From Candidatus Melainabacteria bacterium (lineage in GTDB: Bacteria; Cyanobacteriota; Vampirovibrionia; Obscuribacterales; Obscuribacteraceae): a DNA stretch of 64,000 nucleotides. The stretch's first letter is position 1. Every line of letters starts with the position of its first letter. A program made the translations under genes and the position numbers. The stretch covers positions 17,152-81,151 of the forward strand of contig RXJR01000011.1 of assembly GCA_003963305.1 (NCBI GenBank), read 5' to 3'. Below are positions 263 to 13,211 of the stretch, in pieces. Below the pieces are notes generated by a model that saw only the letters and a list, made by a program, of their open reading frames with translations, searched no databases and was not told the DNA's origin.

Positions 263-335
263 GGGGATATAGCTCAGTTGGTAGAGTGCACGGATCGCAC
301 CCGTGAGGCCAGGGGTTCGAATCCCCTTATCTCCA
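263..335 (+). tRNA. tRNA-Ala (CGC)
   Basis: This is a complete cloverleaf. The 7-bp acceptor GGGGATA pairs with TATCTCC through one G-T pair. The anticodon stem CACGG/CCGTG closes the loop ATCGCAC, which reads anticodon CGC (codon GCG, Ala). The T-arm is AGGGG-TTCGAAT-CCCCT and the discriminator is A. No CCA is encoded. A CGC alanine tRNA is unusual next to rRNA, where Ala(TGC) is the usual partner; that one lies separately at 1709. Confidence 0.95.
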
Positions 336-513
336 ATTCTTACTAATTACAAAGCCCGTTGCGTGACACCTTGTTGGTGGACATTGCGGCTTGAGTTCAG
401 GCTTTCGCTGATTGCAACCGACATCCAAATCGAAAAAAATTGCCAAATTTGTGAAGAAGAGCCACTACAACAGTCGCCAAGAATAGCCGGTAATGATACT
501 ATTGCCACATTGC

Positions 514-587
514 GGGCTATTAGCTCAGGTGGCTAGAGCGCACCCCTGATAAGGGTGAGGTCCCTGGTTCGAGTCCAGGATGGCCCA
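514..587 (+). tRNA. tRNA-Ile (GAT)
   Basis: This is a complete cloverleaf. The acceptor GGGCTAT pairs with ATGGCCC through one G-T pair. The anticodon stem CACCC/GGGTG closes the loop CTGATAA, which reads anticodon GAT (codons ATC/ATT, Ile). The T-arm contains GGTTCGAGTCC and no CCA is encoded. In most bacteria this tRNA sits between the 16S and 23S genes. Here a terminator follows within 50 bases. Confidence 0.96.
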
Positions 588-634
588 TATTTTTCCGAAA
601 AATATGGACAGAGCACCGCAAGTGGTGCAGGCAA

Positions 635-661
635 GCAGGCGAGAGAATCGTCTGCTTTTTT
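635..661 (+). terminator. Rho-independent terminator after tRNA-Ile
   Basis: An 8-bp stem, GCAGGCGA with TCGTCTGC (one G-T pair), encloses the loop GAGAA and is followed by six T. It reads on the plus strand 48 bases after tRNA-Ile. It therefore appears to end a tRNA-Ala(CGC)-tRNA-Ile transcript before the tRNA-Ala(TGC)-23S-5S unit. Confidence 0.7.
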
Positions 662-695
662 GTTGCAAGGTGTCCTGTACCTTTGTCTTACTGCG

Positions 696-1322
696 CTATT
701 GGTCCGGCGCAAAACATCCAAGAATTGCACAAATCAGAATCAAAAAGCCGATAGAAGCACCGATCCAGTTTGACACGGTGAACTTGCTATTAATCGCTGC
801 GCTTCTTCCGGCAACACGGTTGATCTCATTGACATATTTGAGCACCGGAATAAGAGGAATAAAGCTCAGAAAACTTATCAGCCAGAGCGGATCGGGCAAT
901 CGGCTCGAGATCTCCAAGAAAAGCCAGGGCACAAAAACAACCGTTGGCGAGAAAGAATTTGGCAATCCGAACGAATTTCCGGTCTGCAAAACATCTTTCA
1001 AAAGTCCATGCAGATAGAAGACGGAAAACCAGGCTCGCCATCCGGAACGAACACTGCGACCCTGACTCTTGTAGTATTCCCAGTTCTTGTAAGCCCAGAA
1101 AATGTTGTACAAACCCAATGTGCCCAGGTCCATTACTATGAACTTCTTTAGAGATACTGGAAACAAGATCGGCTCAGCGAGCGGCGTTGCGAGGGCGCTA
1201 TCAAGAGGCTGCCCCGACATGTCAGTACCACTCCCCGCTTCTATTGGTTTCCCACACACGCTACATTGCACAGCGGAAGCCAATTGAGGAGTCATGCAGC
1301 TGGCGCATTTTATCTTGTGCAA
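696..1322 (-). CDS. Zinc-ribbon membrane protein between tRNA genes
   Basis: A 208-residue protein that opens with a CxxC...CxxC zinc ribbon (Cys 6, 9, 20, 23) and then has several hydrophobic segments from about residue 60 to the end. This architecture resembles small zinc-ribbon/DUF4234-like membrane proteins. The function is unknown. The chosen TTG start is preceded by AAAAGGA at suitable spacing and is needed to keep the first CxxC; the next ATG would cut the zinc ribbon. The gene lies antisense between tRNA-Ile and tRNA-Ala(TGC), an odd place for a protein gene. The overlapping plus-strand frames have no family features. Confidence 0.75.
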   Translation of the reverse strand: MHKIKCASCMTPQLASAVQCSVCGKPIEAGSGTDMSGQPLDSALATPLAEPILFPVSLKKFIVMDLGTLGLYNIFWAYKNWEYYKSQGRSVRSGWRAWFSVFYLHGLLKDVLQTGNSFGLPNSFSPTVVFVPWLFLEISSRLPDPLWLISFLSFIPLIPVLKYVNEINRVAGRSAAINSKFTVSNWIGASIGFLILICAILGCFAPDQ

Positions 1323-1433
1323 AACGCAAATCCTTTTATATGCAATTTGATCTGGTGCAATTGATCTGATTTAGAACCTGATCTGGAACTCGAATCATAA
1401 CGCCTCTACCCCCACTATCCGCCACGCCCAGGG

Positions 1434-1485
1434 GGCTGTGTCCCACTGTGCCCGGCGCCAGCCCCAGGCACAGTGGGACACAGCC
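1434..1485. repeat. Perfect 19-bp inverted repeat with 14-base loop
   Basis: Left arm 1434-1452 begins GGCTGTGTCC. Right arm 1467-1485 begins GGCACAGTGG and is its exact complement. The spacer is 14 GC-rich bases. No T-run follows on either strand, so this is not a classical terminator. It lies in the 386-base gap between the start of the minus-strand membrane-protein gene and tRNA-Ala(TGC). It could be a dispersed palindromic element, an RNA processing site or a boundary hairpin. I saw no second copy in the window. Confidence 0.75.
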
Positions 1486-1530
1486 TCATTCTTAGACGCT
1501 TTCAATAGACCTTAAAACTTTGTGTTGATG

Positions 1531-1559
1531 CTTCCAACTCGGAAGATTTAGGGTATTAT
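1531..1559 (+). promoter_or_regulatory. Possible promoter of the tRNA-Ala/23S/5S unit
   Basis: The -10-like TATTAT at 1554-1559 lies 17 bases after CTTCCA at 1531-1536, a poor -35. TTGATG at 1525 is a better -35 but is too far away at 23 bases. A promoter here is expected because a terminator and an opposite gene separate this unit from the upstream tRNAs. The motif match alone is weak. Confidence 0.25.
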
Positions 1560-1708
1560 AGAGAAGTAGTCGTTACTGGGCTTCCTAACTGCGCGAAAGC
1601 GAGTTGAGTTCGAAGCCGATAGTGACGTGTGTGAAGAAATTTCAAAATGTACGCTCGATGCTAACGAGCACAGGCAATGAGCCTAGTACAATGAAATCCC
1701 GCATGAGT

Positions 1709-1781
1709 GGGGGCTTGGCTCAGTTGGTAGAGCGTCTCCTTTGCACGGAGAAGGTCAGCGGTTCGACTCCGCTAGCCTCCA
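1709..1781 (+). tRNA. tRNA-Ala (TGC)
   Basis: This is a complete cloverleaf. The acceptor GGGGGCT pairs with AGCCTCC (one G-T). The anticodon stem TCTCC/GGAGA closes the loop TTTGCAC, which reads anticodon TGC (Ala). The T-arm is CAGCG-GTTCGACT-CCGCT-like and no CCA is encoded. It lies about 300 bases upstream of the 23S gene, the position expected for the spacer Ala tRNA. Confidence 0.96.
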
Positions 1782-1967
1782 GAAATCAAGTCGGATAGAC
1801 ATTCTTATGAAGTCGACTCTGACAAGCGAACAAGAAACTCTGAAGAACAATTCAGAAAAACACTTGTAAGAGCGCTGATTCATCTGATAGTATTGATGAT
1901 TCGCGCAGGTTTCAAAAAACCGGCGCGACGGCCATCCGGAAAAGGCCATTAAACAAAACCGGCTCTG

Positions 1968-1992
1968 TACCCTGAAAACTGCATATTGAGGT
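1968..1992 (+). other. 5' arm of the 23S rRNA processing stem
   Basis: These 25 bases, starting TACCCTGAAAACTG, pair with 5112-5136 on the other side of the 23S gene. There are 24 Watson-Crick pairs and one G-T pair. Long helices bracketing 23S are the known RNase III processing sites of rRNA precursors, so the two arms help fix the limits of the pre-23S. Confidence 0.85.
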
Positions 1993-2087
1993 CCGTATTC
2001 TAGAAATACATTTTCTAGAATTTCCACCATCAATGTTGTCTGGAATACTCGACAGTGTCCTGCTGATCGAGATTATGTCCAGACTTT

Positions 2088-5047
<2,960 letters not shown>

Positions 5048-5111
5048 ATTATTGATGATGGAAAGCCAACCTAATAAATTGGCCGACGCTATAAAGCGTT
5101 GCATTACGCAA

Positions 5112-5136
5112 ACCTCAATGTGCAGTTTTCAGGGTA
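5112..5136 (+). other. 3' arm of the 23S rRNA processing stem
   Basis: This is the complement of 1968-1992 and lies 65 bases after the 23S 3' end. Together the arms form a 25-bp helix closing the 23S loop, which places RNase III cuts here and separates 23S from 5S. Confidence 0.85.
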
Positions 5137-5217
5137 CTGGTTGAAACTTGTAACGAGTTTCAAGCCAGAACCAAAACAAGGTTGACACCATATTCGGTGA
5201 CCTTGTACCCTAAAGGT

Positions 5218-5334
5218 TCTTGGTGCTCAAGCGACCGGAACACACCCGTTCCCATCCCGAACACGAAGGTAAAGACGGTCAGCAGCGACAATACTTGGTG
5301 GGTGACCGCCTGGGAAGATAGCCCGGTGCCAGGA
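5218..5334 (+). rRNA. 5S ribosomal RNA
   Basis: The length is 117 bases. The terminal helix TCTTGGT/GCCAGGA, the loop with CCCATCCCGAACACG and the GGGTGACCGCCTGGGAA arm are typical 5S features. It lies 170 bases after 23S and directly before a strong terminator. The ends were set from the terminal helix. Confidence 0.95.
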
Positions 5335-9314: not shown

Positions 9315-10937
9315 ATGACCTCCGACGCGTACAGTCCTTACTCAGAGGATCGATTCTCCATGCCAAGCTATGATGCAAACGTTGAAGCACCAGTGACCCC
9401 GACGCAGCAAATGACGAACCCAGCGCTCCTCAGCGAGGGATACCCGGGCATATCATCTTCGCAAACACAAACAAGCTTCCAACCACCAACAGATGGAAGC
9501 AGCTTCAGCGGCTCGACATCCTCCGCTTCCACGCTCAATGGTCTTCCCAAAGAGGTCCTATTAGGAGCAATTACGAATCTACCACAGCAAGACATTGCTA
9601 CATTCTTCGCCGGATTGCCTCAGAACGAACAGACGCAAATCCAGACCTTTATACAGCAGAATCCAAATGCGCAAGGACAAGATCTTTTCAATCAACTTGC
9701 CCAACTGCCGACAGCCGACCTCGCTCAAGGTCTGGCGATGGTGCCAGGCAGCGATCTGCAACAGGCGCTTGCAGCTTCACAACAAAGTGGCAGCTTAGCA
9801 GGGACCGATTCTTCAACCGGCACTAGCTATGGTGCTACGGGCACAGGCACGGATGCCAGCGGTTTGTACACTCAACCAACTACTGGTGCGGGTACCGATA
9901 CCAGCGGCTTGTACACTCAACCAAATGCAGGCGCAGGCACCGATGCCAGCGGCTTGTACACTCAACCAAATGCAGGCGCAGGCACAGATACAAGCGGCTT
10001 GTACACTCAACCAAATACTGGTGCGGGTACCGATGCCAGCGGCTTGTACACTCAACCGAATACTGGTGCGGGTACCGATGCCAGCGGCTTGTACACTCAA
10101 CCAAATGCAGGCGCAGGCACAGATACAAGCGGTCTAGCCACCCAGCCCCAAGTCGCGCAAGGCGATGGCACCTACCAGACGATGCCTCAAGACGTGACCG
10201 GCGGCGGTGCTGCACAAGGCACCGTAGACAGTTCAGCAGTGCTGAACAAGTTAGCCACACTGGACGCGGCTCAACTCAGTGCGGTCATCGCCGGTTTGCC
10301 CCAACAAGATTTAGCGACCCTTTTCAAAGCGCTGCCATCTGCAGATCAACAAGCTGTGCAGTCCGATCTGGCGAACAACAGCAATCCAAGCGCTCAGGAC
10401 GTAGCCGCCTCCATGGCAAAATTGCCCACTCGAGACGTTTTAGCAGCAGCAAGTGCAGTACCTGCTTCCGACTTTGCTTCGCTTCTGTCATCAGACACGG
10501 GAAGTCAAAGCAGTGGCAACCAGGCGCCCAAACCGGGTGGCTCAGAGTTTCCATTGTTGTTTGGACTGGCTGCAGCTGGCGGAGTCGGATACCTCGGGTA
10601 TCGCAAGGGTATGTTTAACAATGTGCCTGACCTCTTCCAAAAATTGACAGGAAGATTCGATGCGCAAGCACCTTCATGGATGTCCAAGTTCGCTAGAGGT
10701 GGAGCTGACGCCGCTGAAGTCGAAGCCGCTCTAGCGCCTGTAGTTGTTCCAGAAGCCTCGGCTGCTACCAGTCTCGCGGCAGATGGCTTGAGCATGGGCG
10801 CCAAAATTGCTGAAGAGTCCGCAGCACTTGCTCGCGTTGGCTCAGAAGTTGGGTCGGTTGCCGCGGCAGTCGAACACGCCGGTGCAGCAGCAGCCATCGT
10901 CGAAGATGGTTTAAACGTGGCGAAGGTTCTTCACTAA
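9315..10937 (+). CDS. Repeat protein with duplicated helical domain
   Basis: A 540-residue protein of unknown function. Residues 1-75 are Ser/Thr/Pro/Gln-rich. Residues about 76-152 form a helical domain with LPQQDIATFFAGLP. Residues 176-280 are seven 15-residue repeats of the type GAGTDASGLYTQPNA. Residues about 305-390 repeat the helical domain (LPQQDLATLFKALP). A hydrophobic stretch near residue 415 (FPLLFGLAAAGGVGYLGYRKG) could span a membrane, and the tail is Ala-rich. There is no signal peptide. The ATG at 9315 has only a weak purine-rich upstream (CCCAGG), and downstream ATG codons are possible. It could be a surface or cell-envelope protein; this is inference. Confidence 0.8.
   Translation: MTSDAYSPYSEDRFSMPSYDANVEAPVTPTQQMTNPALLSEGYPGISSSQTQTSFQPPTDGSSFSGSTSSASTLNGLPKEVLLGAITNLPQQDIATFFAGLPQNEQTQIQTFIQQNPNAQGQDLFNQLAQLPTADLAQGLAMVPGSDLQQALAASQQSGSLAGTDSSTGTSYGATGTGTDASGLYTQPTTGAGTDTSGLYTQPNAGAGTDASGLYTQPNAGAGTDTSGLYTQPNTGAGTDASGLYTQPNTGAGTDASGLYTQPNAGAGTDTSGLATQPQVAQGDGTYQTMPQDVTGGGAAQGTVDSSAVLNKLATLDAAQLSAVIAGLPQQDLATLFKALPSADQQAVQSDLANNSNPSAQDVAASMAKLPTRDVLAAASAVPASDFASLLSSDTGSQSSGNQAPKPGGSEFPLLFGLAAAGGVGYLGYRKGMFNNVPDLFQKLTGRFDAQAPSWMSKFARGGADAAEVEAALAPVVVPEASAATSLAADGLSMGAKIAEESAALARVGSEVGSVAAAVEHAGAAAAIVEDGLNVAKVLH
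9840..10154 (+). repeat. Seven tandem 45-bp coding repeats
   Basis: Seven in-frame 45-base units encode GxGTDxSGLYTQPxx. Units 2-6 are almost identical, and alternation of ACC/GCC at one codon and AAT/ACT at another shows repeated copying of unit pairs. Units 1 and 7 have diverged at their outer ends. Copy number probably varies between strains. Confidence 0.95.
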
Positions 10938-10984: not shown

Positions 10985-11020
10985 CAAACAAACAAACAAA
11001 CAAACAAACAAACAAACAAA
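10985..11020. repeat. CAAA tetranucleotide microsatellite
   Basis: Nine perfect CAAA units lie between the stop of the repeat protein and the stop of a small minus-strand gene 12 bases away. On the minus strand this reads (TTTG)9. Confidence 0.92.
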
Positions 11021-11032
11021 GACGGTCGCCAA

Positions 11033-11248
11033 TCAGCTCGCCAAACGCTGCTCCTGAACCTGGAACTGTTGCTCGAACTGTTGCTGACAATAAGACTCCC
11101 AGTCCATCTGGATCTGAAAAGATTCGACAATAGCAATAGCTTCTCTATTGGCACCTTGATTAAAGAGGTTCTGAAGTTGGCGCCAGTGTTGCATGTTATT
11201 TCTCGTCGTCACAACAGAATCAAATCCTGTCTGCCAGCAGCTCTTCAT
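11033..11248 (-). CDS. NREA small-protein family, member A
   Basis: A 71-residue protein on the minus strand. It aligns with three plus-strand neighbours (12348, 12646, 13011) through a pattern Arg-x3-Gln-x-Trp, then L-NQG-NREA-IVESFQ-QM. Here the core reads NQGANREAIAIVESFQIQM. The tail is Gln-rich. The ATG follows GAGGT at 8 bases. The function is unknown and it looks all-helical. Opposite orientation to the other members means it is not simply part of one operon, which supports a real, maintained family. Confidence 0.75.
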   Translation of the reverse strand: MKSCWQTGFDSVVTTRNNMQHWRQLQNLFNQGANREAIAIVESFQIQMDWESYCQQQFEQQFQVQEQRLAS

Positions 11249-11371
11249 GGGGTGGGACCTCTAGTAAATTAGACGGGGGTGTCTGTCTCAACACGACTAA
11301 ATTACCTGAGAGTTGTTTCTTTTTTGTTACCACGAAGCGCAAAGAACCAAGTTAACACAAAAGCTTTTCAG

Positions 11372-12220
11372 TTAACGCAAAAGCCCCTCGAAACCCTCAA
11401 CATCAGCATGGCTGACCCAAACATCACGAGGATCTTTGCACTCCTTGTAGCCCTGATAAGACGGCAAGCTGTGGCGCTTCACGACAGCGACCTTCTTTGC
11501 CTCCATCGCTTTCGGACCGCCGTTGTTGACACCGGAGTACAAAAACAACGAATTCATCTTGCTGCTCATCTTATCCGTGTCCCATAAATTTAGCTGCAAT
11601 GGCAACGCCGCTACGCTTTTAGGAGTTTGAATGAGAGTGGCAACAATCTGACATGGCTGCTTGGGAAAGAATCCCTCCCCCAGCACAAGAAAGTCTCCTA
11701 CATTCCCTCGACTCACCGGAACAATCGCTCCATTTTGCGTCTTATAAGGAAGTGCGTAACAGGTCGCGTTCCAATTCAAAAACGGACGGATTCCTGTTCT
11801 AACTAACGGCCATTCAGGAATCGACGTTACTTTCAAAAAGTTGAGAGGCGACCCACGACGCACCCAGTCCTGGCAAGTACTCACACCCGTCAGTTTACGC
11901 ACTGGGGAGATAGCACGTACACGCCAATCTGGTGCCTGGGACAGGATAACCATTTGATGGTCAGGCAAATCAACGCTCAAGTAGTCCTTACAGATGCGCA
12001 GGTTAACGCGACGGTGCATTTCAAGTTCATAGCTCAGATCCAGCTCCTCATCCGGCTTCAGAGAGAATGCCTGCCCCGACGGTGCTGCACAAACAGCCGG
12101 GAATGCGACTGCAGCAAAATACGCCATTAACAGGAATCCGAAAACCCTAGCCAGCGCAGTGTTGGTCACGTGTAACCATCTCATCAAAGGAACAAATATC
12201 TTTCCAGCCATTCTAAACAT
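11372..12220 (-). CDS. Secreted or anchored protein of unknown function
   Basis: A 282-residue protein. The N-terminal 45 residues contain a hydrophobic stretch (ARVFGFLLMAYFAAVAF) ending in VCAAP, which fits an export signal preceded by a basic region; the true start could be a later Met. The mature part has five or more Cys, including ICKDY, TCQDW and PCQIV, and no domain I recognise. It ends 123 bases from the start of the divergent-facing small gene. A short imperfect hairpin near its 3' end (AAAGCTTTT...AAAAGC) may act as terminator. Confidence 0.7.
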   Translation of the reverse strand: MFRMAGKIFVPLMRWLHVTNTALARVFGFLLMAYFAAVAFPAVCAAPSGQAFSLKPDEELDLSYELEMHRRVNLRICKDYLSVDLPDHQMVILSQAPDWRVRAISPVRKLTGVSTCQDWVRRGSPLNFLKVTSIPEWPLVRTGIRPFLNWNATCYALPYKTQNGAIVPVSRGNVGDFLVLGEGFFPKQPCQIVATLIQTPKSVAALPLQLNLWDTDKMSSKMNSLFLYSGVNNGGPKAMEAKKVAVVKRHSLPSYQGYKECKDPRDVWVSHADVEGFEGLLR

Positions 12221-12347
12221 ACAACGACTGATTTATCCAAAGAGCGTGCAGCCGCTCGAACTTTCTATTTAATTGTTCGCGCACCCGTTCTCAAATATTT
12301 TTCAGATTTGACCTGTAGATTGATGACACCAAGCAGAGGATAAACGA

Positions 12348-12557
12348 ATGAATCCCTACATCGCGTACCAAGCTTCCCCATCGACCGGCTTCGAACGGTT
12401 ACTGAAAAGAAGGGCGGTAACGCAGCAATGGTCGACGGTTTCGCATCTTTTGACGCTGCGAAAAAATCAGGAAGCAACTGAAATCGTCGCGTCATTTCAA
12501 CGCCAGATGGAACTGCAATCGTCCACCAGTGCGGCACCCAACGACAAAGCAGCTTGA
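12348..12557 (+). CDS. NREA small-protein family, member B
   Basis: A 69-residue protein and the most divergent member. It contains GFERLLKRRAVTQQW and then NQEATEIVASFQRQM, matching the family positions of Arg, Gln-x-Trp, N-EA, IV-SF and QM. The ATG follows AGAGGA at 7-base spacing, a good ribosome site. Its function is unknown. It is first in a run of three plus-strand members. Confidence 0.75.
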   Translation: MNPYIAYQASPSTGFERLLKRRAVTQQWSTVSHLLTLRKNQEATEIVASFQRQMELQSSTSAAPNDKAA

Positions 12558-12645
12558 GTCTAATTAATCTCAAAGCGCCCGAACTTTCCAGAAATTGACA
12601 CACGAAATGACTAAAGTGATGTCATAGCAATTGCGGGAGTAAAAA

Positions 12646-12855
12646 ATGACTGAAGAACTCACTCGCAGACACGACAAAGTAAGCGGTATCCAATCATTGT
12701 TGGCGCGCAGAGCGTCGATGCAATGGACTCACCTGAAAAATTTGATGAACCAGGGCAGCAACCGTGAAGCCGCAGCAATTGTCGAATCGTTCGAAATCCA
12801 AATGAGCCAAGAACAGCACCTGGAACAGCAGGTGGTCGACTTCACCCCTCAATGA
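12646..12855 (+). CDS. NREA small-protein family, member C
   Basis: A 69-residue protein with RRASMQWTHLKNL and then MNQGSNREAAAIVESFEIQM. It lacks the residue between Gln and Trp seen in the other members. The ATG follows GGGAG with good spacing. A clear terminator stands 27 bases after the stop, so it is the end of a short transcript or is transcribed alone. Its function is unknown. Confidence 0.8.
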   Translation: MTEELTRRHDKVSGIQSLLARRASMQWTHLKNLMNQGSNREAAAIVESFEIQMSQEQHLEQQVVDFTPQ

Positions 12856-12881
12856 TTCTACAGACCCTGGAAAAACCTTTT

Positions 12882-12907
12882 AAAGCTGGCAGGCGCCAGC
12901 TTTTTTT
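12882..12907 (+). terminator. Rho-independent terminator after member C
   Basis: A perfect 9-bp stem, AAAGCTGGC with GCCAGCTTT, has loop AGGC and is followed by a run of T (seven counting the stem end). It separates members C and D into different transcripts. Confidence 0.9.
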
Positions 12908-13010
12908 ATTGGGTCAAAATCTTCCCAGTTTTAATGTGCATGTCAGAGAAATGCCAGAATTGGCCATTAGATTAAGGGAACGGAAAGGGACAGCGCGGAG
13001 CGATTCTAAA

Positions 13011-13211
13011 ATGACTAACGAAACAGCAAAAAAGACCGGCTTCCAAAATATGGTTTCGCAGCGCGATTCGATGCAATCCTGGACCCACGTGCGAACGCTC
13101 CTGAACCACGGCATTAACCGGGAAGCCGCCGCAATCGTTGAATCGTTCCAGAGACAAATGGACTTCGAACAGTCTCAGTACGGCGACACTCCAGTACAGG
13201 TGGCTGCATAA
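13011..13211 (+). CDS. NREA small-protein family, member D
   Basis: A 66-residue protein with GFQNMVSQRDSMQSW and LLNHGINREAAAIVESFQRQM. The frame is open back to 12852, but that part covers the terminator and has no family similarity. The ATG at 13011 starts exactly where member C's homology begins and has GCGGAG upstream. Its function is unknown. Confidence 0.78.
   Translation: MTNETAKKTGFQNMVSQRDSMQSWTHVRTLLNHGINREAAAIVESFQRQMDFEQSQYGDTPVQVAA

Follow-up and report, generated by a model that had tools for sequence, protein, structure and literature searches.

Do four short open reading frames crowded into 2.2 kb of the window (the whole 64,000-nucleotide stretch of DNA that was analysed) make up a protein family, and what might such proteins do? 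An initial annotation made from the letters alone had placed four small genes here, one on the minus strand and three on the plus strand, and both positions and strands are as it gave them. Member A occupies 11033-11248 on the minus strand (71 aa, with its ATG at 11248), and the plus strand carries member B at 12348-12557 (69 aa, C-terminus KAA), member C at 12646-12855 (69 aa) and member D at 13011-13211 (66 aa, C-terminus VAA). A-D encode homologous proteins of 66-71 residues; the alignment spans the proteins and has 15 columns identical in all of them, B being the most divergent member. A BLAST search with C against the whole 7.5-Mb genome (G000) of the source bacterium, which is uncultured, non-photosynthetic and related to cyanobacteria, matched exactly the three other members, at E values of 3e-12, 3e-11 and 6e-4. 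A further apparent copy in this genome (G000:C24, QQRDTMRSWTRLSNW) lies out of frame within an oxidoreductase-like gene and was rejected. Just 3' of the A stop, at 10985-11020, there is a perfect tetranucleotide repeat, (CAAA)9, that is missing there in the two other species of the genus (G001 and G002).

Those two species supplied the evidence on whether the frames are genes. Orthologues were found for A (L026:5695-5880 at the G001 locus, L027:8793-8978 at the G002 locus), B (L026:6978-7187, L027:7449-7658), C (L026:7279-7506, L027:7156-7359) and D (L026:7887-8081, L027:6619-6807), and the three species share the order A (minus), a non-member gene for a 282-aa secreted-type protein between A and B (minus; here 11372-12220), then B, C and D (plus), followed by a gene for a 900-aa protein. 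The comparison also settles the start of D: its mechanical open reading frame opens at 12852 and reads through a terminator, but the G001 orthologue opens directly at the same MTNETA, with no such extension, so 13011 is taken as the start. Third-position differences exceed those at first and second positions in the orthologue pairs, which marks the frames as real genes and not chance open reading frames; dN is 0.15-0.48 against a dS of 0.76 to saturated, saturation being frequent, with dN/dS well below 1. It is close to certain that the four genes are real and conserved. Spurious frames, or decaying repeats without function, have practically no probability as an explanation: the very narrow distribution and the want of a named domain would suit them, but the codon-position pattern already contradicts them, as do purifying selection and the order, ribosome sites and upstream blocks kept across three species. 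The initial annotation had allowed for a locus with no homologues elsewhere and with frame-disrupting changes in its relatives, and that is not the picture found.

How far the family extends was addressed with the iterative profile search and count of members per genome that had been proposed at the outset, and true relatives were obtained in three other genomes. With a profile of A-D, both G001 and G002 yielded four copies at the corresponding locus, G001 a fifth elsewhere, and G049, which belongs to another genus of the same GTDB family, a single one. A second profile, built from all 14 members and run over 50 genomes of the GTDB family, returned the same 14 in 4 genomes and no credible new member, and no credible further member appeared in a phylum sample (386 genomes) or a class sample (382 genomes). 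Beyond the phylum, where each scan relied on a single short peptide pattern or a single sequence and could miss remote relatives, the pattern scan of 84,980 species matched only the G002 locus (Candidatus Melainabacteria bacterium palsa_1080); viral contigs and phages held no family member. So far, the family is confined to four genomes. Several weaker matches were set aside: a Rhizobium plasmid match at E 0.2, the only one among plasmids; cyanobacterial matches in G229 and G271, where 29 residues ending a 500-aa protein-kinase-like protein stop short of the NREAA core and are attributed to chance; a match in G150 to low-complexity DNA full of stops; and other matches with internal stops.

In a tree of the 14 members, the A, B and C orthologues each group by slot and the three D sequences lie close together but do not make up a clade, supports being modest over about 70 columns. 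Conserved order and tree grouping together indicate that the four slots were present in the ancestor of the genus. The extra G001 copy follows a gene for a TPR protein and has no counterpart beside the orthologous TPR gene in G000 or the best match in G002, so either it was gained late or it alone has survived; the G049 copy has a HAD-like hydrolase gene on one side and, on the other, an unrelated gene. With no neighbour constant across the copies, context gives no partner, which counts against reading the proteins as binding modules. An antitoxin of a toxin-antitoxin system is not supported, as there is no constant partner gene by each copy: A-D are mutually adjacent and the neighbours of the extra copies differ.

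Alignment of the members bears out a strict core with free ends, with part of the detail revised. Besides Met1, the residues invariant in 14 of 14 members are Gly10, Arg18, Asn36, Glu38, Ile42 and Phe46 (D numbering), and Trp24, Leu30, Ala39, Val43, Ser45 and Gln49 are conserved in 13 of 14; of the four residue types singled out for checking, Asn, Arg and Glu are accordingly complete and Trp lacks one member, the distant G049 copy. The proposed core NREAAAIVESF-x-x-QM is exact in C and D, but A has NREAIAIVESFQIQM and B has NQEATEIVASFQRQM. A Gln-x-Trp site common to all does not hold, since C has QW without the intervening residue and orthologues have NSW or HNW. The strict core is therefore G, R, N-x-E, I and F, and Gln-x-Trp is not part of it.

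The proposal that the family was undescribed has stood up, no credible match being found in Pfam, NCBIfam, PHROGs or the PDB. In Pfam and NCBIfam the A-D family matches nothing at any curated cut-off and hits unrelated models only weakly, and a sequence search of the PDB gave no match. The match to a known domain that might have explained the family did not turn up, nor was any such family to be seen among the papers listed on this order and its small proteins. DUF2336 and DUF1217 (Pfam) were considered and rejected: they reach E 0.005-0.009 and 17 bits against cut-offs of 23-35, in only 1-2 of 14 members, and the likeness is one of helical stretches of similar composition. A phage or defence protein was dismissed as well, with PHROGs, PADLOC, phages and viral contigs giving only weak, chance-level matches and none credible. 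A-D form a genuine, undescribed, lineage-restricted small-protein family. Like other clusters of ORFan paralogues it is short, narrowly distributed and under purifying selection, and unlike them it is not in the libraries searched.

Structure prediction gave a divided answer to the suggestion of a helix pair. Single-chain AlphaFold models from an eight-row alignment are all-helical for both D and A, so the proteins are likely all-helical; the D model forms a hairpin of helices 10-32 and 37-57 (pLDDT 65), but the A model is one continuous helix, 8-70 (pLDDT 79.8). The hairpin is not reproduced between the two, a further point against the binding-module reading. The A model would suit a coiled-coil rod, a single oligomerising helix of about 60 residues. 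Such a rod is nonetheless unlikely, for the D model breaks at 33-36, the Gly common to the members and the invariant Asn-x-Glu near the middle of the chain would speak rather for a turn, with a helix cap, and straight-helix models often result from shallow alignments. Hydrophobic moments were not above shuffled controls in most members, and clear amphipathic helices were not found, which also tells against the binding-module reading. The size of about 60-70 residues and the helical content would also fit a helical-hairpin dimer of the Rop or NblA kind, binding RNA or a protein complex, yet the searches do not bear this out: Pfam matched no such family, Foldseek of the D model against the PDB gave no match with E up to 10, and the single rod of A is out of keeping with it. 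Such a dimer appears improbable.

A related possibility is that the family descends from TPR proteins, of which this lineage has many, as a single degenerate TPR-like hairpin serving as scaffold or adaptor. By eye, W-x2-L-x6-G-x-N-x-EA resembles the TPR pattern minus one residue, in the models D, though not A, folds as a helical hairpin, and a TPR-protein gene adjoins the extra copy in G001. Yet the loop is shorter by one residue and the unit is single, with no flanking repeats; Pfam TPR models match 0 of 14 members at E 1, and profile comparison with the consensus TPR gives a probability of 0.1%, a score reached by 6 of 100 column-shuffled controls. A TPR origin is unsupported by that comparison and is regarded as quite unlikely.

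The genes of the family appear to be separately controlled. Each has its own ribosome site, as first claimed (AGAGG for A, AGAGGA for B, GGGAG for C and CGGAG for D), purine-rich and at a plausible distance, and each has its own upstream block kept among the three species, most with a TAnnnT hexamer. A consensus scan found no strong sigma-70 promoter above chance, and for that reason the promoters are only putative. The one private terminator had been correctly noticed: an intrinsic terminator at 12882-12910 (plus strand) in the gap between C and D, with a 9-bp stem in a hairpin at 12882-12903 followed by a T tail. G002 also has a terminator after C, of different sequence, and the pair argues for separate transcription of D; B and C could form a single transcription unit. 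An inverted repeat, TTGAG-TCTAATTAAT-CTCAA, at 12554-12575 overlaps the B stop, its TAATTAA is kept in all three species, and it is possibly an operator of C.

The ends of the proteins provide a lead. An Ala-Ala C-terminus is found in 7 of 14 members, namely all B and all D of the three species and the G049 copy, and is missing in A, in C and in the extra G001 copy; the stretch of tail that precedes it differs among the B, D and G049 members. Only 4 of 184 long open reading frames in the DNA examined end in Ala-Ala, and by simple binomial arithmetic the occurrence in three of six groups (B, D and the G049 member) has a chance of about 2 in 10,000, a figure that is a lead only, since the pattern was spotted post hoc and the groups share ancestry. 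In these genomes the tmRNA tags finish in -ALAA and -LRAA, and the ssrA tag and the B, D and G049 members are alike in their C-terminal Ala-Ala. Recognition of ssrA-like Ala-Ala ends by ClpXP is established. A gene for a ClpA-like ATPase lies 8 kb from the cluster, possibly by coincidence.

What the proteins do is best read, with a probability of about 0.35, as the work of separately regulated binding modules: small all-alpha proteins, soluble, of a family that is restricted to this lineage and kept at one locus. Their size, the lack of an enzyme-like motif, the upstream element that each paralogue has to itself and the degron-like ends all point towards a regulator or binding module. The four paralogues would have arisen before the species of the genus separated, with purifying selection keeping the locus; each protein would be a separately regulated module whose conserved helical core (R18, W24, N36-R-E, F46, Q49) packs and makes contact with a partner in the cell, and the variable tails would set specificity or lifetime. 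Through their Ala-Ala ends B and D may be degraded quickly by a ClpXP-type protease, which would be in keeping with regulators and not with structural proteins. A bolder version is decidedly doubtful: the proteins would represent a new fold-family, helical regulators with short lifetimes that are confined to one non-photosynthetic cyanobacterial branch, the four paralogues each having a promoter of its own and an ssrA-like C-terminus for control by a protease. The family, with its defined core and orthologues, is an addition to what is known of a group of bacteria that has been little characterised. Lineage-restricted families of small proteins are numerous, and this one would become important only if its four paralogues turn out to be a set of regulators, each with its own trigger or partner.

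The surroundings of the cluster have features of their own. The 282-aa protein is 64-66% identical within the genus and has no Pfam match, and its distant relatives come from two further genera of the same family, where the small genes are missing in most genomes. A fragment in a genome of a different genus (L115, on G033:C572, 3760-4515) shares 66% identity with the N-terminal part of the neighbouring 900-aa protein, other matches to that protein in the same genus being about 34%, which points to transfer, to contamination or to a close relative that is missing; no family member lies upstream of the fragment on its contig. Part of a ribosomal RNA operon (263-5334), with LSU and 5S rRNA and three tRNAs, lies 6 kb from the cluster. 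A 540-aa open reading frame contains in-frame 45-bp repeats at 9836-10132 (GAGTDxSGLYTQPN units), adjoining weak MgtE_N/FliG_C-like segments.
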